A stretch of 64,000 bases of DNA. It comes from Peredibacter starrii (GTDB lineage: Bacteria; Bdellovibrionota; Bacteriovoracia; Bacteriovoracales; Bacteriovoracaceae). Below the pieces are notes generated by a model, which saw only the letters and a list, made by a program, of their open reading frames with translations, made no database searches and was not told where the DNA came from. The stretch spans positions 2,480,001 through 2,544,000 of the forward strand of contig NZ_CP139487.1 of assembly GCF_034259205.1 (NCBI RefSeq), written 5' to 3'. The translations under genes were made by a program, and so were the position numbers. The number at the start of each line of letters is the position of its first letter. The stretch's first letter is position 1. This document shows positions 5,936 to 56,461 of this stretch, one piece after another.

Positions 5936-7390
5936 TTTGGTAAAACGACGGTAAACGTCGATCCTTTACCTTCAACACTTTCTAAATTTATGACCCCACC
6001 ATGGCCTTCGACAATTTTTTTGGTGATATAAAGACCGAGTCCAAGACCTTCTATGGGCCCATGCTCCGAGCCTCTCTCATATTGCTCAAAAATGACCTGT
6101 TGATCTTTAGGACTGACCCCATAACCATGATCTGTCACGGAGAAAACAACACTTTCTGGCCTTCCTTCAAGTGTGACGAGAAAAGGTTTGCCATTTCCAT
6201 AGCGGATAGCATTCGTGAAGAGATTATTCATCACTTGTTCAATTCTAAAAGCGTCCCAGTTCCCTTTAAAGTCACTTCCTTTGTATTCTACGGCCGGAAC
6301 ACCGGACTCAGAATTTTTAAAGTAGGAATCCATTCGTTCCATGACTTCTTTTAAAAGCACATCAAGATCTGTAGGTTCTTTACGAAAACCCAGTTTACCT
6401 AACTGGATTCTAGATACATCTAACATGTCATCAACTAAGCGATTTAAACGATTTACTTGCTTAAAAATCTGCTCATAGAAACGAGTGATCTTCTCTTTCT
6501 GGAACACACGGGGATTATCTTTTTCAATGTCTCTTTGAATGATTTGTGCCTGAAGCTTCATGGCAGTGAGTGGAGTCTTAAGTTCATGCGAGGCCACAGA
6601 TAAGAATTCATCTCTTGATTTAACCGCACTTGATAGATCCAACTCCAGTTTCTTTTCAGTGGTAAAATCCCGAAAAGTGACCGCAATACCATCTTGTAGA
6701 GGATAAACCAGAAGCCCAGGAAAGACAGACCAAAGATTTTGTCCAATAATATCTGGCTCTTTCTTATGAGTTAACTGCTTTGCCATTGGATTAAGATACC
6801 TAATGGTCCAATCGCGATCAATGTACATAAATGCATAGGGAGAATCTTCCAGATAAGTTCGAAACTCTGTTTCGCTCTGTTTTAATTCTTGTTTAAGGGC
6901 GACTTCATCCGTGTTGTCCGAAACGGTGTCAAGAATTCCGCCTACACTTCCGTCTTCCAAACGAATAGGCGAAAAACAAAAAGTATAGAATCTTTCTGTC
7001 ATGACTCCGTTAGTATTTACCACCATTGGAAGGTTCTCATACATCACGGACTCACCATCCAGACACTTCATAAAAAGCGGATGAATAGTGTCCCAGATTT
7101 CTTTCCAGGAATTTTCTGATTTCGTACCAAAGGGCCTCAGGATGCTTATTTCCTAGAATCTCAATACAGCTGTCATTGTAGAATTGAATGAGTTCATCGC
7201 CCCAGACGAGGTACATGGCAAATTTATGCTCAACCATCATACCAATAGTCGTAACCAAACTTTGAGGCCAGTATTCGGGATCACCTAATGAAGTTTTCGC
7301 CCAATCATAATTGGCAATTCGATAACCCATTTCACCGGCGTGTGAGAGATGCTTGAGACGGGGATTTTTAGTCATAAGAAATGTTAACAT
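5932..7390 (-). pseudogene. PAS-domain histidine kinase interrupted by a one-base frameshift
   Basis: Two reading frames join into one kinase. The 5' frame carries the start of a PAS_4-type domain (WPQSLVTTIGMMVEH, then ELIQFYNDSCIEILGNKHPEAL). The other frame continues the domain (WKEIWDTIHPLFMKCLDGES, then ERFYTFCFSPIRLEDGSVGG), a second PAS, the histidine box SVASHELKTPLT and the ATPase boxes (VMNNLFTNAIRYGN, DHGYGV, GLGLGLYI). Dropping one base of the AAA at 7129-7131 restores one continuous frame that fits the family consensus throughout. The cause is either a recent mutation or a sequencing error. The start is uncertain: ATG at 7390 or 7375 fits similar kinases. It is coupled to the radical SAM gene by an ATGA overlap. 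Confidence 0.82.
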
Positions 7391-7463
7391 AATCCGACAA
7401 AAAGAATTAAAATCTTTACCCGACGCTGAAAGACAGTTTTTCCCATCGTTGTTAGTATTATTC

Positions 7464-7838
7464 ATGGGTGAAATCGTAGGACCACTTATTTTTGTTTTAT
7501 TTGCTGAATTCGGAGTGAAAAGAATGATTCACGCCTTTGATCTCACAGGTCCTCGAACGCCTGCTTATGCGATGCTGGGCTACATTATACTTGCAGCAAT
7601 GTTTGCCTGTCTGAGCTTCTATCTTTCTTCTAAATTGTTTATTCAGAGCGAAACTTTTCAACTATTGAATTTAATTTTCACCCCCTTACTACTAGGTGTT
7701 TTGATGGCCTTGAAAGGAAAGTGGCTCAGAAGAAATGAAGAAGAAATTATTCGACTGGATACATTTTGGTACGGGCTTGTTTTTGGAATTGTATTTGTGA
7801 TGATTCGTTATCTTGCTCTTCGATCATATGAAATCTAA
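7464..7838 (+). CDS. Small four-helix membrane protein, unknown function
   Basis: A 124-residue protein of mainly hydrophobic character with about four predicted membrane segments: GPLIFVLFAEF near the start, the region around YIILAAMFACLSFYL, LLNLIFTPLLLGVLMAL and WYGLVFGIVFVMIRYLAL. I do not recognise a family. The frame is open further upstream, but that part overlaps the opposite-strand kinase, so I use the ATG at 7464; no good ribosome site supports it. It lies 29 bases before a second small membrane protein gene, which suggests a short operon. Confidence 0.6.
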   Translation: MGEIVGPLIFVLFAEFGVKRMIHAFDLTGPRTPAYAMLGYIILAAMFACLSFYLSSKLFIQSETFQLLNLIFTPLLLGVLMALKGKWLRRNEEEIIRLDTFWYGLVFGIVFVMIRYLALRSYEI

Positions 7839-7867
7839 AATAGATAAAACCTTCTTTCAGGACATAC

Positions 7868-8197
7868 ATGTACTTTCTGGTTAAAACCCTCATTTCAGCA
7901 TTGATCATTGCAACTGTTACGAAACTATCAGAGTCACAGACCATTACTGCAGCATTTTTAAAATCTCTTCCTTTGACCTCCTTACTCGTTTTCTTTTTCA
8001 TGAAATATGAAGGGAGGACAGACAAAGAGATAGCCGCCATGTCATGGGACATTCTTTATCTAGTCATTCCTTCATTGATTCTTTTTATTGTGCTGCCCTT
8101 AATGCTAAACAGAGGACACAACTTTTACATCTCAATGGCTACAGGCGTTTTTGCAATGTCGATAGGATATTTTGTCACAATTAAAGTTATTAGCTAA
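7868..8197 (+). CDS. DUF3147-like small membrane protein
   Basis: A 109-residue protein with four likely transmembrane helices. The sequence pattern, YFLVKTLISALIIATVTKL at the start, SLPLTSLLVFFFMKYEG in the middle and VIPSLILFIVLPLMLNRG in the third helix, matches what I know of the DUF3147 family, whose role is not established. It follows another small membrane protein closely and precedes the Fpg-type glycosylase gene by 21 bases. Confidence 0.65.
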   Translation: MYFLVKTLISALIIATVTKLSESQTITAAFLKSLPLTSLLVFFFMKYEGRTDKEIAAMSWDILYLVIPSLILFIVLPLMLNRGHNFYISMATGVFAMSIGYFVTIKVIS

Positions 8198-8218
8198 AAA
8201 CTTTGATTATGATGAAGT

Positions 8219-9016
8219 ATGCCGGAACTTCCAGAAGTCGAAACATTTCGCCGTCAAATTGATAAAAAATTAAGAGGTAAGACCATAACGGACGTGCATG
8301 TACGTCCGGATAAATTGATTTTTGCAGGCAAGTCTCAAGCTTTTGTAAAAAAGGCATTCATAGGAGCAAAGATCACCAAATGTCTTCGAAAAGGAAAATA
8401 CATTTGGTTTGAGATGAATAAAGAAATTTTACCTGTTTTTCATCTTGGCATGACGGGATCTTACATCATTAGCGATACTCTTCCTGATAAATCCATGAAG
8501 TCAGTCAAACTTGTACTTGAAATGAGTGACGGAACAATTCTTACCTACAAAGATCCTCGCCGCTTTGGAAGAATATTTCTCCTGAAAGAACCTTTGGAAC
8601 ATCGACCCCTTTCTCATCTCGGTCCCGATGTTATGAATGAACTTCCTACAGTGGCACAAATTAAATCCATCTTAGGAAAGCGCAAAGCGCCAATTAAAGC
8701 TGTTCTCCTCGATCAAAGTGTTTTTGCAGGCATTGGGAATTGGATGGCAGATGAAATTCTCTTTCAGAGTCAACTCGACCCTCACCGCCTGGCCCAATCA
8801 CTTTCTCCAGCAGAAGTAAAACGCCTTCATTCCAAAATCAACTCGGTCACTCAATTCTCTGTAAAGGTTGGAGCCGATGATGAAAAATATCCTGATGATT
8901 GGTTGTTTCACAGGAGATGGGGAAAAAAATCAGGAGTTACTTCGAAAGGTCACCTGATTAAGCATGAGACCGTTGCTGGTAGAACAACTGCCTGGGTTCC
9001 TGGCATCCAGAAGTAA
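8219..9016 (+). CDS. Formamidopyrimidine-DNA glycosylase-like protein with zinc-less finger
   Basis: A 265-residue member of the Fpg/Nei family. The N-terminus PELPEVET contains the catalytic proline and glutamate after removal of Met; the beta-sandwich signature HLGMTGSY, DPRRFGRI and the helix-two-turn-helix region VFAGIGNWMADEILF are intact. The C-terminal zinc finger is replaced: no cysteines remain, and the region RRWGKKSG...AGRTTAWVPGIQK resembles the zinc-less finger of plant and fungal Fpg proteins. The arginine of GRTTAW probably occupies the position that contacts DNA. The expected role is excision of oxidised bases. A canonical zinc-finger paralogue lies at 55658-56461. Confidence 0.88.
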   Translation: MPELPEVETFRRQIDKKLRGKTITDVHVRPDKLIFAGKSQAFVKKAFIGAKITKCLRKGKYIWFEMNKEILPVFHLGMTGSYIISDTLPDKSMKSVKLVLEMSDGTILTYKDPRRFGRIFLLKEPLEHRPLSHLGPDVMNELPTVAQIKSILGKRKAPIKAVLLDQSVFAGIGNWMADEILFQSQLDPHRLAQSLSPAEVKRLHSKINSVTQFSVKVGADDEKYPDDWLFHRRWGKKSGVTSKGHLIKHETVAGRTTAWVPGIQK

Positions 9017-10131: not shown

Positions 10132-11073
10132 TTACATTCCAGTCGTTCCACCTGTAGTTCCGCCAGTTGTACCACCCGTAGTTCCACCAGTTGTACCACC
10201 CGTTGTTCCGCCAGTTGTGCCACCTGTAGTTCCGCCGGTTGTACCACCTGTAGTTCCACCAGTTGTGCCACCCGTAGTTCCACCAGTAGTGCCACCCGTA
10301 GTTCCACCAGTAGTGCCACCCGTAGTTCCGCCAGTTGTGCCACCCGTAGTTCCGCCAGTTGTGCCACCTGTAGTTCCACCAGTTGTGCCACCGGTAGTTC
10401 CACCCGTTGTACCACCGGTCGTGCCTCCAGTTGTTCCATTATCAATCACGTCTGGGGCCTGGAAGACCTTACAAGAAATAGGAACCGTTAGATTATTTGG
10501 ATCAGTTGTATTGTTCTGATAGGTCGGTGGAAGTGGCACATCAGCATTCGCACCATGAACCATTAAAACAAAATCCTGTCCTGCAGGAATCGATTGGCGA
10601 AGCTCATCAAGCGGGTACTCTCGCTCATAAGTATAGTCTCTACCTGACGGGAAAGAGCCATCTGGCAAATTAAATGGAAGAACTCTTGGGCCCACTGCTT
10701 GTTCAACCTCCACTGGGTCGAGAACACCATCTTGGTTTGTATCATTTTCCGCAAGTGTTGGACATTTATCTGCAACGTGAGCGTACTGCTGGTGTTCAAC
10801 AGGATCAACGTTTCCACACTCCCAATCCATAATAAAAATATTTTTTTCTACTTTGGTTTGACTCGCATTAATCACCACAGAATTATTAATGACCGTATTT
10901 AGAATGATAGTCTGGCCCGTATCAACCGGCCCTTCCGCTTCAGATTGTTGTTCATTTTGAGGTGTAGTGCTTGATGAATCATCGTCATCAGAACCACAGG
11001 CACCAAGGGCCAAAAGGCCAACAACAAGAAGGATGTTGAGAGTTTTAGACTTGATAAAACGCATTGAGTGCAT
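10132..11073 (-). CDS. Lipoprotein with EF-hand loop and C-terminal TTGG-repeat tail
   Basis: A 313-residue protein. Residues 1-26 form a lipoprotein signal ending in the lipobox LGAC, followed by a run of Asp and Ser that would favour outer-membrane sorting. Residues 111-122 (DTNQDGVLDPVE) are a canonical EF-hand loop with ligands at positions 1, 3, 5, 9 and 12, so calcium binding is likely. Four cysteines lie in the globular part (86-201). From residue 214 to 312 the protein is only the tetrapeptide TTGG repeated about 25 times, ending in Met. Such a tail is flexible and could be a spacer or an O-glycosylation target. AAGGAG precedes the first ATG. No family is recognised. Confidence 0.8.
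   Translation of the reverse strand: MHSMRFIKSKTLNILLVVGLLALGACGSDDDDSSSTTPQNEQQSEAEGPVDTGQTIILNTVINNSVVINASQTKVEKNIFIMDWECGNVDPVEHQQYAHVADKCPTLAENDTNQDGVLDPVEVEQAVGPRVLPFNLPDGSFPSGRDYTYEREYPLDELRQSIPAGQDFVLMVHGANADVPLPPTYQNNTTDPNNLTVPISCKVFQAPDVIDNGTTGGTTGGTTGGTTGGTTGGTTGGTTGGTTGGTTGGTTGGTTGGTTGGTTGGTTGGTTGGTTGGTTGGTTGGTTGGTTGGTTGGTTGGTTGGTTGGTTGM
10138..10434 (-). repeat. 12-bp tandem repeat array coding for TTGG
   Basis: About 25 tandem copies of a 12-base unit, with variants such as ccacccgtagtt and ccaccagttgtg on the plus strand, encode Thr-Thr-Gly-Gly. The differences are almost all at third codon positions, so the amino acid sequence is conserved while DNA units diverge. The length is a multiple of three, so copy-number change would lengthen or shorten the tail without a frameshift. 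Confidence 0.92.
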
Positions 11074-11808: not shown

Positions 11809-13962
11809 ATGAGTAAAGACTTCAAACCGTTTATCTCTCACACTGAAAAGCTTAAGGAATTTACCCTGGGCCCCATTCTCATGGGAGTTTTTTTGGGAAT
11901 TCTATTTGGTGCTTCATCCCTTTATCTCGCTCTTAAAGTGGGTATGACGGTTTCTGCTTCCATTCCGGTAGCGGTTCTGTCCATCACGCTCTTCAAAGGT
12001 ATTTCGAAAATGTTTGGTTTTCGTCATGCCACAATTCTTGAAAATAATATGGTTCAAACCACGGGCTCGGCCGGTGAATCCATCGCCTTCGGTGTTGCGG
12101 TCACCATGCCGGCCCTTTTAATTTTAGGCTATGATCTTGATGTTGGTCGCATCATGACGGTTTCAATCCTGGGTGGTCTTCTTGGGGTTCTTATGATGAT
12201 CCCTCTTCGCCAGGCGCTCATTGTGAAGGAACACGGGAAACTCATTTATCCGGAAGGAACGGCCTGTGCGGAAGTACTGATTGTCGGTGAAAAAGGTGGC
12301 TCATCTGGAAAAATCGTTTTCGGTGGTTTCTTTTTAGGTCTATTCTACAAATTCTTCAACGTGGGCCTTCGTCTTTGGAAAGACGTTCCTGAAAGAGCAT
12401 TTAGTTTCTTCAAAGGTTCAGCAGTTGCCGCCGAGGTCTCTCCAGAACTTCTCGGTGTGGGTTACATTATTGGTCTTAGAACCGCTGCCATCATGATGGC
12501 CGGTGGTGTTCTATCAAGCTTTGTCCTTATTCCTATGATCTCACTTTTTGGTGGCGCTCTTACAGAACCACTATTCCCGGCAAAAACTCTGATTCGTGAT
12601 ATGGAAATCCACGACATCTGGAGAAACTACGTTCTTTATATCGGAGCTGGTGCGGTTGCGGCCGGAGGGATTATTTCTCTTTTCCAATCACTTCCAACCA
12701 TCATTCATGGTGCGAAGTCAGGGCTAAAAAGTGTCATGGGTTCAAAAGGTTCAATTGAATCAAAGAACAGAACAGAAGATGATCTTCCTTTTTCATTTGT
12801 AGTAATCGGAACAATTCTTATGGTTCTGGGCCTATGGTTTGCGCCTGCCCTTCACATCAATTTATTTTCAGCTCTCCTTATCGTTTTATTCGGCTTTTTA
12901 TTTGTGACAGTGAGTTCACGTCTTACTGGTGAGATTGGTTCATCTTCAAATCCAATTTCGGGTATGACGGTTGCCACTCTCCTATTGACCTGCCTTGTGT
13001 TCTTAGCAGTTGGTTGGATCGGACCTGAACATCGTGTAGGTGCTCTTAGTATTGCGGCAGTTGTTTGTATCGCTGCCTCAAACGGTGGAACAACTTCTCA
13101 AGATCTAAAAACCGGATACCTTGTTGGTGCAACTCCTCGTCTTCAGCAATGGGGACTATTGATTGGTGCACTTACTAGTGCTATCGTCATTGGTTATTCG
13201 CTTATTCTTCTAAACGATGCTTCGACGGTTTATACGAAGAAAGTTCCTGACTACACTGTGACTGACATGAGTCTTCTAAAAGAGAAGCAAAAAGTTGCGG
13301 GTGTTGAAAGTGTTAAAGATCAAAATGAATATTTTGTGCTTCAGGTGACTGAACAATCGAACGCAGAGATGCTTGGTGTTCTTAGTCCTGGAAAATATCT
13401 TGTCGATAATGCAGGGAAAGTGACTTATCTCGTGGATCCGGGAATTAACGGATCGGTTAATAAGCGTGATGATGGTACGAGTGTAACGAAATACGAAGCT
13501 CCGAAAGCGCGTCTCATGTCTCTTATCATTGATGGTATCCTTACTCAGAAACTTCCTTGGGGACTAGTTCTTCTTGGCGTGGCCCTCGCCATCGTGCTTG
13601 AGCTTTGTGGAATATCCGCTCTTCCATTTGCAGTAGGTGTCTATCTTCCTATCTCGGCCTCAACTCCCATTTTTGTGGGTGGCCTTGTTCGCTGGTTAGT
13701 TGAAAGAAAAACAAAGGCCCCTGAATCTGAACTTGAGGCCGATACAGGCCCGGGTGTTCTCTTTTCATCAGGCCTCATCGCTGGTGGATCGATTGCCGGA
13801 ATTCTTCTCGCCGTTACTCAAATTATGCCAGGCGTATCAGACGCTTTGGATTTTTCGGGGAAAATGGGCGGGATGGCGACATCGGATCTATTTGCGACGC
13901 TGGTTTTTGGTGGTGCGGCCGTAATTTTATTTGCTGTTGGACGGAAAAAGCCGAAATTATAG
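11809..13962 (+). CDS. OPT-family oligopeptide transporter
   Basis: A 717-residue inner-membrane protein with about 15 hydrophobic helices. LGPILMGVFLGILFGASSLY and ALKVGMTVSASIPVAVLS at the N-terminus, IYPEGTACAEVLIVGEKGG and the segment AASNGGTTSQDLKTGYLVGA are hallmarks of the bacterial OPT (oligopeptide transporter) family, which imports small peptides or peptide-like metal chelates, probably driven by protons. A soluble insertion of about 85 residues (YTKKVPDYTVTDMSLLKEK onward) lies before the last helices. The gene is monocistronic, ending at a hairpin that includes its stop codon. The substrate is unknown; peptide uptake would suit a protein-degrading bacterium. Confidence 0.92.
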   Translation: MSKDFKPFISHTEKLKEFTLGPILMGVFLGILFGASSLYLALKVGMTVSASIPVAVLSITLFKGISKMFGFRHATILENNMVQTTGSAGESIAFGVAVTMPALLILGYDLDVGRIMTVSILGGLLGVLMMIPLRQALIVKEHGKLIYPEGTACAEVLIVGEKGGSSGKIVFGGFFLGLFYKFFNVGLRLWKDVPERAFSFFKGSAVAAEVSPELLGVGYIIGLRTAAIMMAGGVLSSFVLIPMISLFGGALTEPLFPAKTLIRDMEIHDIWRNYVLYIGAGAVAAGGIISLFQSLPTIIHGAKSGLKSVMGSKGSIESKNRTEDDLPFSFVVIGTILMVLGLWFAPALHINLFSALLIVLFGFLFVTVSSRLTGEIGSSSNPISGMTVATLLLTCLVFLAVGWIGPEHRVGALSIAAVVCIAASNGGTTSQDLKTGYLVGATPRLQQWGLLIGALTSAIVIGYSLILLNDASTVYTKKVPDYTVTDMSLLKEKQKVAGVESVKDQNEYFVLQVTEQSNAEMLGVLSPGKYLVDNAGKVTYLVDPGINGSVNKRDDGTSVTKYEAPKARLMSLIIDGILTQKLPWGLVLLGVALAIVLELCGISALPFAVGVYLPISASTPIFVGGLVRWLVERKTKAPESELEADTGPGVLFSSGLIAGGSIAGILLAVTQIMPGVSDALDFSGKMGGMATSDLFATLVFGGAAVILFAVGRKKPKL

Positions 13963-55657: not shown

Positions 55658-56461
55658 ATGCCCGAACTACCCGAAGTCGAAACCATCCGCTCCCAGCTCT
55701 CTGAATATCTTCCTCTGAAGATAGATTCAGTCTCTACGACTCCGCAGTTAAAGCAAAACATCCTTCACACGGATCTCGATCTCACCGGTAAAACTCTTGT
55801 GACGATTAAACGCAAAGGCAAAATGTTGGATTTCATCTTCGATGATGGATCGCATCTCCTTTCGCACCTGGGAATGACCGGTACGTGGCTCATCGGTGAA
55901 ACAATCAAGGCCACCAAACACACGCATTTGACGTTAAAAGGCCCGAATTACACCCTCGCTTACGATGACCCTCGCCGCTTCGGTCATATGTATTATTACA
56001 GCGCTGAAGAAGCCGCATTAAAGCTTGCTGAGTTGGGCCTTGATCTAGCTGATCCTGAGTTCGACATAGAATATCTTACGAATGCGATTAAACGTTATCC
56101 AGAACGCGCCCTCAAGGTAACTCTCCTGGATCAGAAACTCTTCGCGGGATCTGGGAACTATATCGCCAACGAAATCTGCGCTCGCGCGGGAATTCGTCCT
56201 ACTCGCAAATGTAAGCAAATCAAAAAAGATGAATTCCCGAAAATCCTCAACGCCATTAAACAAGTTTTAGAACCCGCCCTTCAATCAGGTGGAACCACTT
56301 TCCAAGGTGGCTATCGTGACTCAACAGGTGAATACGGCCAGGGTGTTCAGCACTTAGTGGTTTTCTATCAGAAGACCTGTCAGCTCTGTAAGAAGACGCC
56401 CGTAAAGAAAATTATCTTAGCTCAAAGAGGCACGTACTACTGTCCTAAATGCCAGAAGTAA
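55658..56461 (+). CDS. mutM: Formamidopyrimidine-DNA glycosylase (zinc-finger form)
   Basis: A 267-residue enzyme of the usual Fpg length. PELPEVET (catalytic Pro and Glu), LSHLGMTGTW, DPRRFGHMYYY and the helix-two-turn-helix QKLFAGSGNYIANEICARA are followed by the C-terminal zinc finger: CQLCKKTP then RGTYYCPKCQK with all four cysteines. It removes 8-oxoguanine and other oxidised purines and cuts the strand at the abasic site. No Shine-Dalgarno sequence is visible; TAATTA is six bases before the ATG, so the message may be leaderless. A zinc-less paralogue is at 8219-9016. Confidence 0.93.
   Translation: MPELPEVETIRSQLSEYLPLKIDSVSTTPQLKQNILHTDLDLTGKTLVTIKRKGKMLDFIFDDGSHLLSHLGMTGTWLIGETIKATKHTHLTLKGPNYTLAYDDPRRFGHMYYYSAEEAALKLAELGLDLADPEFDIEYLTNAIKRYPERALKVTLLDQKLFAGSGNYIANEICARAGIRPTRKCKQIKKDEFPKILNAIKQVLEPALQSGGTTFQGGYRDSTGEYGQGVQHLVVFYQKTCQLCKKTPVKKIILAQRGTYYCPKCQK

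Follow-up and report, generated by a model that had tools for sequence, protein, structure and literature searches.

A zinc-less, short-loop Fpg of probable plant type beside a MutM-type Fpg in Peredibacter starrii

Nine subfamilies of Fpg/Nei DNA glycosylases were listed by Barrantes-Reynolds 2011, and in the available portions of that paper (PMC3188539) the zinc-less subfamily with a 12-residue loop, PFNei, is assigned to 'Plants/Fungi'. The same text regards the zinc-less finger as having arisen separately in NEIL1 and in PFNei. Bacteria contain another second Fpg type, BaFpg2, a narrow group that includes actinomycetes; according to the same portions, it differs from PFNei in keeping four cysteines and an 18-residue specificity loop. 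The Arabidopsis enzyme, AtFPG, is described in the accessible text of PMC10573277, PMC6264785, and PMC6728418 as having good activity on Fapy, Gh, Sp, and AP sites and as excising little 8-oxoG, for which the short loop is blamed. The capping loop is also named as the determinant of lesion range in the accessible parts of the first two of these sources (PMC10573277, PMC6264785). The available text of PMC10573277 also summarizes genetic assays: G-to-T mutations of an E. coli fpg reporter were suppressed by AtMMH-1, and an fpg mutY reporter mutated less in the presence of homologues from sugarcane. Among the open-access papers listed, a set that mostly excludes subscription papers, a zinc-less bacterial Fpg is described neither in the titles and abstract openings nor in the parts of the text consulted; it may nevertheless have been published elsewhere.

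The window, i.e., the whole stretch of 64,000 nucleotides analysed here, encodes on its forward strand (8219..9016) an intact open reading frame of 265 amino acids that starts with MPELPEVE and ends with RRWGKKSG...GRTTAWVPGIQK. An N-terminal Pro-Glu pair is known to be catalytic in this family. Its codons (mature residues 1 and 2) lie at 8222..8227, and both residues occur in 79 of 79 zinc-less rows of the alignment. The protein matches PF01149 at 115.5 bits and the H2TH family PF06831 at 79.4 bits, both above cut-off, the latter placing the H2TH DNA-binding domain at residues 134-220 (8618..8878). The finger (residues 228-265, 8900..9013) has no cysteine, the only one in the protein being C55. 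The zinc-finger family PF06827 gives no match to the protein even at E ≤ 5, and the four zinc-cysteine columns read V, K, V, and I, as against Cys in 38 of 38 zinc Fpg rows. The original prediction had described a Pro-Glu start, DNA-binding helices, and a finger devoid of cysteines, and all three are borne out. Residues 214-233 (8858..8917) mark the site of the absent 8-oxoG capping loop, where 20 residues stand in place of the 31-32 of most zinc Fpgs. P2, E3, K60, M78, R114, K160, N174, D178, G254, and R255 are kept in all 79 zinc-less rows; the phosphate-clamp set of Lys60, Asn174, and the finger's presumed clamp arginine, Arg255 within GRTTAWVP, is complete. The wedge position 116 is more variable, with Phe in 19 of the 79 rows (this protein included), Leu in 54, and Ile in 6. 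Sequence and an AlphaFold2 model (mean pLDDT 96.3) together show an intact Fpg fold in which the main residues for catalysis and DNA binding are in place, the finger is zinc-less, and the capping loop is missing.

Comparison with proteins of solved structure places the Arabidopsis enzyme nearest. The best solved relative in a phmmer search is Arabidopsis FPG1 (184.7 bits, 2.4e-53, residues 1-265), followed by Geobacillus MutM (116.1 bits, residues 1-224 only). The AlphaFold2 model gives the same order: after re-ranking of Foldseek matches with VIA-align, the three Arabidopsis FPG entries (3twk, 3twl, 3twm) come first with Z of 35.2, 34.2, and 33.8 (the first for 3twm, rmsd 1.3 Å over 258 residues), as against 30.4 and below for MutM, 25.4 for E. 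coli Nei, and 25.0 for Mimivirus Nei1. A BFVD fold search returned only viral Fpg-like proteins as significant matches, at 17-26% identity. A profile of 59 bacterial zinc-less members built without the plant row scores Arabidopsis at 326 bits and MutM at 161, although 57 of the 59 members are loci found by a search with Arabidopsis among its four query rows. The plant affinity first suggested by the look of the finger is thus upheld by sequence score, fold, and tree (100/98, see below), and the resemblance is well above chance.

The likeness to Arabidopsis FPG1/MMH-1 extends to details. Both proteins end in a zinc-less finger with GRTTA[WY]VPxxQK, lack the capping loop at the same site, carry the K160/D178 pair, and are 39-40% identical. 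The differences are that the present protein is bacterial, that its 265 residues stop at the end of the plant match, and that it is without about 12 residues between two strands, where many bacterial members have the Arabidopsis length. It shares with PFNei, as characterized in the available part of PMC3188539, a zinc-ligand-free finger with the arginine kept and a short specificity loop. The K160/D178 pair corresponds to the LSC1 state that the same text gives as common to BaFpg1, BaFpg2, and PFNei. In our alignment, both residues occur in this protein, in Arabidopsis, and in all 79 zinc-less rows; among the 38 zinc rows K160 is universal and D178 is found in 8. With bacterial MutM/BaFpg1 (Geobacillus MutM and the second Fpg of the window, at 55658) the protein shares the fold, Pro-Glu, Lys60, the Met/Arg/Phe triad, and H2TH, and it differs in having neither the zinc finger nor the 8-oxoG capping loop. 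NEIL1 and Mimivirus Nei1 also have a finger without zinc, but score only 25 and 63 bits; a Nei of that type is ruled out by these scores and by the presence of K160/D178, the wrong LSC1 state for it. We would file the protein, on its sequence, as a new bacterial representative of plant-type Fpg and not as a separate type.

Family models treat this group unevenly. PF21218 (Fpg-like_C) aligns to the protein at 34 of 34 positions but scores 15.6 bits against a cut-off of 27.1, compared with 87.5 for Arabidopsis. All four bacterial members checked, this one among them, fall below the cut-off; at E ≤ 0.01 the model matches 41 of 59 bacterial zinc-less members, and the best (8.8e-9) may pass. The NCBI fpg model TIGR00577 gives 205.1 (cut-off 203.3), so the protein would be named Fpg. 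In this way, an enzyme that is probably weak on 8-oxoG would be filed under the general Fpg name. The canonical zinc-finger protein at 55658 falls just below the cut-offs of TIGR00577 and NF002211.

Relatives occur across a wide range of bacterial phyla. With a query alignment of three bacterial sequences and Arabidopsis, 84,980 species (one genome each) were scanned, which yielded at least 548 relatives among 589 stretches, of which the best 80 were examined. By record title, these 80 belong to Planctomycetota, Acidobacteriota, Rokuibacteriota, Myxococcota, Armatimonadota, Verrucomicrobiota/Kiritimatiellota, Bdellovibrionota, Gemmatimonadota, Pseudomonadota, and others. Two of the 80 were left out, one in two reading frames (L039) and one with a run of N (L111), and two others (L066, L083) come from one assembly. 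All 78 one-frame loci lack the Cys4 finger and have at most 2 cysteines in the last 45 residues. The search patterns favoured the zinc-less subfamily, and the uniformity of the 79 rows is therefore partly due to selection. A pattern-free search of 148 genomes from one phylum (that of G098) found 7 genomes with a match at 186 bits or more, the next match, at 128.8, being a zinc Fpg. At E ≤ 1e-35, zinc-less Fpgs occur in 26 of 368 genomes (14 of 181 genera) of this protein's own phylum, and in 6 of 188 and 4 of 199 genomes of two others, each of the three samples having been built around a carrier genome that is itself counted. Zinc-less Fpg thus has a wide but sparse distribution among bacteria and is carried by about 2-7% of the genomes sampled from four phyla.

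The distribution is patchy at close range as well. Within its own genus, the gene is present in 3 of 26 genomes (this one, G000, together with G006 and G022), and the intact G006 protein is 60% identical to it. None of the 17 other genes near the window copy has a match near the G006 and G022 copies (1e-6). In two relatives, G003 and G012, the downstream protease and another neighbour have stayed together, and the zinc-less gene is absent from the stretch compared. A single Bdellovibrionota clade, as expected under vertical descent, is supported at 94/28 in the first careful tree and is absent from the tree with insert columns removed, where it is not rejected (AU p 0.378). The distribution is accounted for by transfer and/or loss. 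In G006 (L179), the zinc-less gene (7442-8239) and a zinc Fpg gene (12470-13273) lie about 4 kb apart, as against about 47 kb in the window. The G022 copy (L004/L178, 1392-2188) occupies two overlapping reading frames and follows a phage-type integrase; its split may reflect an assembly error or decay. Foreign base composition was considered and rejected, as the gene is normal in this respect (GC 0.416, the mean of 18 genes being 0.418; GC3 0.343 against 0.387 ± 0.042) and shows no sign of recent arrival. Carriage by viruses was also looked for: five of six viral contig loci were read, each with at least 4 C-terminal cysteines, and an alignment scan of viral contigs gave none. Matches on phages (30 records) and plasmids (64 records) stay below 60% identity throughout and, among the matches listed (20 and 40), below 39%; their fingers were read in 11 loci.

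Phylogeny places the protein with the plant enzyme. In each of four trees, a single branch sets Arabidopsis and the bacterial zinc-less rows apart from the zinc Fpgs, with support of 100 in a quick tree and 100/98 in each of three careful trees. All trees contain one plant row (Arabidopsis) and no fungal row; the first careful tree and the tree with the L175 lineage (see below) have one Nei row each, and the insert-removed tree has none. The zinc rows do not include L018, L025-L029, or L035, no tree contains L125 or L128, and the tree with the L175 lineage also omits L120, L121, L127, L033, and L034, which mostly form long branches. Within the zinc-less side, Arabidopsis falls inside a 25-row set (97/93) and an 8-row set (99/96) in the first careful tree, inside a 58-row set (99/98) in the insert-removed tree, where the bootstrap did not settle, and in a 9-row set (99/96) in the tree with the L175 lineage. 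The segment between the two strands mentioned above is 41 residues long in Arabidopsis and in 21 of the 79 zinc-less rows and 39-54 in 53 of them; it is 29 in the window protein and 27-30 in 26 rows. This character agrees with the nested position of Arabidopsis, but lengths of 39-45 also occur in 4 of 38 zinc rows, which makes length alone a weak character. The nesting of Arabidopsis within the bacterial clade, and with it a bacterial origin of the plant gene, is favoured by these trees rather than established, because the Arabidopsis branch is long and its placement outside the bacterial clade is not rejected (AU p 0.43; 0.316).

Two other accounts of origin may be weighed against this. One holds that the protein is an ordinary bacterial MutM that lost its cysteines recently. 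The name Fpg that TIGR00577 would give it is in keeping with such an account, and independent zinc loss may occur elsewhere: L125, on plasmid pMPPla107 of Pseudomonas amygdali, is an Fpg that resembles MutM and has a long loop, yet its finger is free of cysteines, and it may represent either such a loss or a decayed gene. The window protein, however, falls together with Arabidopsis and the zinc-less Fpgs from many phyla (100/98), has the loop deletion common to that clade, and reaches only 73 bits against the MutM of its own genome. Recent cysteine loss is therefore refuted by the four trees and the common loop deletion, and we regard it as having next to no chance of being right. The phylogenetic check proposed in the original prediction thus finds the protein in an old clade with Arabidopsis. 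The other account, that a plant or fungal gene moved into bacteria, could appeal to the description of this Fpg type in plants and fungi (available part of PMC3188539), to its presence in bdelloid rotifers by transfer from a fungus (accessible text of PMC6264785), and to the quick tree, where Arabidopsis stands at the clade base in an unresolved position. Against it, the members on the bacterial side come from many phyla, their sister lineage, with zinc and a short loop, is itself bacterial, and Arabidopsis forms a single long row within or next to the bacterial clade; such a transfer appears very improbable. With a bacterial origin preferred, a wider scenario may be put forward, to which we would give somewhat less than even confidence: the zinc-less Fpg of plants and fungi may be a bacterial invention that eukaryotes took up from within a sparse but widespread bacterial clade, formed in bacteria by loop loss and then zinc loss, which divides labour with MutM or in some bacteria replaces it.

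The order of the two losses is suggested by the loop itself. The segment from the last H2TH helix to the finger is exactly 20 residues long in Arabidopsis and in every one of the 79 zinc-less rows. The same segment has 31 or 32 residues in 35 of 38 zinc Fpgs (16, 26, and 27 in the others), and hence 11-12 capping-loop residues are missing in all the zinc-less rows and Arabidopsis. One locus, L175 (genome G198), combines four finger cysteines with the 20-residue segment. When 392 genomes of its phylum were searched, four further loci of this kind (L201-L204) came up at 187-218 bits, with a zinc-less match next at 130 bits. All five (in G198, G161, G968, G936, and G1072; 5 of 392) carry the full set of four cysteines in the finger; measurement gave a 20-residue segment in L175, L202, and L203, and by eye it is equally short in L201 and L204. 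In the tree that contains them, L175, L202, and L203 branch as the sister group of the zinc-less clade (support 99/94, and 97/99 for the two together); L201 and L204 were read separately and are in no tree. The lineage resembles the zinc-less clade in loop length and sister position, and differs from it in keeping the finger cysteines and lacking the WLFHxRWGK motif. From its sequences it looks like a step between MutM and the zinc-less Fpg. Because this sister lineage has a short loop yet retains its zinc cysteines, loop loss probably came before zinc loss, although separate losses of the loop may also have occurred. The original prediction tied the type of finger to the type of lesion. Loop and zinc are separable, which makes this link doubtful; the loop deletion is common to the clade, and the literature names the capping loop (see above). 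The loop would be a likelier cause of altered specificity than the finger. The annotated start of L125 lies downstream of the start of its protein match.

The second Fpg of the window, at 55658..56461 on the forward strand, is an ordinary zinc-finger protein of the MutM type with 267 amino acids and a full-length capping loop. Its Cys4 finger (residues 241-267, 56378..56458) matches PF06827 at 22.9 bits (cut-off 21.3), in agreement with the expected four-cysteine enzyme at this position. Two unlike Fpgs are thus present in one genome, as had been proposed, and no third was found in the single-contig genome of 4.15 Mb by protein search (E ≤ 0.001) or with PF01149, which return two matches each. 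Over residues 1-218 the two proteins are 31% identical, and the zinc Fpg has the reverse affinity among solved structures (MutM 129 bits, Arabidopsis 55). To call the two genes paralogues, as was done at the outset, is misleading, since they belong to deeply separate clades and show no recent duplication. The genome also encodes a MutY-like protein (253.3 bits, below the family cut-off of 286.5) and Nth, and has no OGG_N match, so 8-oxoG can fall to the zinc Fpg. The zinc Fpg gene has a GC of 0.469 and a GC3 of 0.502, the mean GC3 of the 18 genes near the zinc-less copy being 0.387.

Taken together, we consider it likely, largely by analogy with the Arabidopsis enzyme, that the protein is a bacterial plant-type Fpg, with both glycosylase and AP lyase activity on Fapy, hydantoin, and abasic sites, that is weak on 8-oxoG and works beside a MutM-type Fpg. 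Counting against this reading are the variable wedge position 116 and the PF21218 score below the cut-off. As in the rest of the family, the N-terminal proline would attack C1' of the damaged nucleotide, with Met78, Arg114, and Phe116 filling the gap left by the flipped-out base and Asn174, Lys60, and Arg255 of the finger pinching the flanking phosphates; beta,delta-elimination would then follow. By comparison with Arabidopsis FPG, the missing capping loop would leave an open pocket, and the preferred substrates would be formamidopyrimidines, guanidino- and spiro-hydantoins, and abasic sites, 8-oxoG being handled poorly and left in the cell to the MutM-type Fpg and the MutY-like protein. The zinc-less finger would act as a structural stand-in for the zinc finger and not as the cause of a change in substrate, and the gene may have arrived or persisted by patchy inheritance. 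The suggestion that hydantoins are a plausible substrate class fits the action of AtFPG on Gh and Sp given in the available text of PMC10573277.

A different possibility is that the protein is a second general-purpose Fpg, excising 8-oxoG well enough to serve as a back-up or, in some genomes, as the only MutM. In a pairwise search of 34 carrier genomes, a second Fpg match was missing from 11; when 10 of these were re-examined with PF01149, 9 had a single match. One of them, G121, is a complete Kiritimatiellota chromosome whose only Fpg is zinc-less and which also has MutY and Nth; the others are draft assemblies, in which a gene may have been missed. OGG_N was found in 1 of the 10 genomes tested (G131), and 8 of the 9 with a single PF01149 match have no OGG_N match. 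Because some carriers show no second Fpg, a simple division of labour is open to question: such genomes may have no excision of 8-oxoG from 8-oxoG:C, may use another enzyme, or may draw on some activity of the short-loop Fpg. The activity of AtMMH-1 and the sugarcane homologues in the E. coli fpg reporters noted above is in line with a general-purpose role. What speaks against it is the missing capping loop in all 79 zinc-less rows and the weak action of AtFPG on 8-oxoG reported in the accessible parts of PMC10573277 and PMC6728418, and on balance it seems rather unlikely. Still less credit, and indeed hardly any, can be given to a decaying, non-functional copy; the split gene of the genus-mate G022 would suggest it, but the window copy is intact, has every key residue checked, and is 60% identical to the intact protein of G006.

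A bacterial plant-type Fpg would bear on both the origin and the repair substrates of the plant enzyme. The broad bacterial clade is a plausible source of that enzyme, offers many small proteins for structural and kinetic work, and separates loop loss from zinc loss, which are coupled in the plant enzyme. Bacteria with both Fpgs, with the short-loop one alone, or with a short-loop Fpg that keeps its zinc finger offer natural experiments for telling apart the roles of loop and finger.

The gene has as its neighbours a PAS/histidine kinase, two small open reading frames, and a trypsin-like protease, which rules out an operon partner or a repair island. Across 81 loci with 571 open reading frames (Fpgs included), no neighbour family occurs in more than 6 loci, the larger clusters being, as judged by coordinates, overlaps of the Fpg itself in other frames. 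The two small frames, directly upstream at 7353-8197, look hydrophobic, and the similarity of the second to PRK09272 'hypothetical protein' models stays under the cut-offs of those models. Further along the window, a frame at 10132-11073 has, by eye, a lipoprotein-like start, and a TTGG repeat in its second half; a 24-base unit, repeated in tandem 12.5 times at 10139-10438, encodes it.
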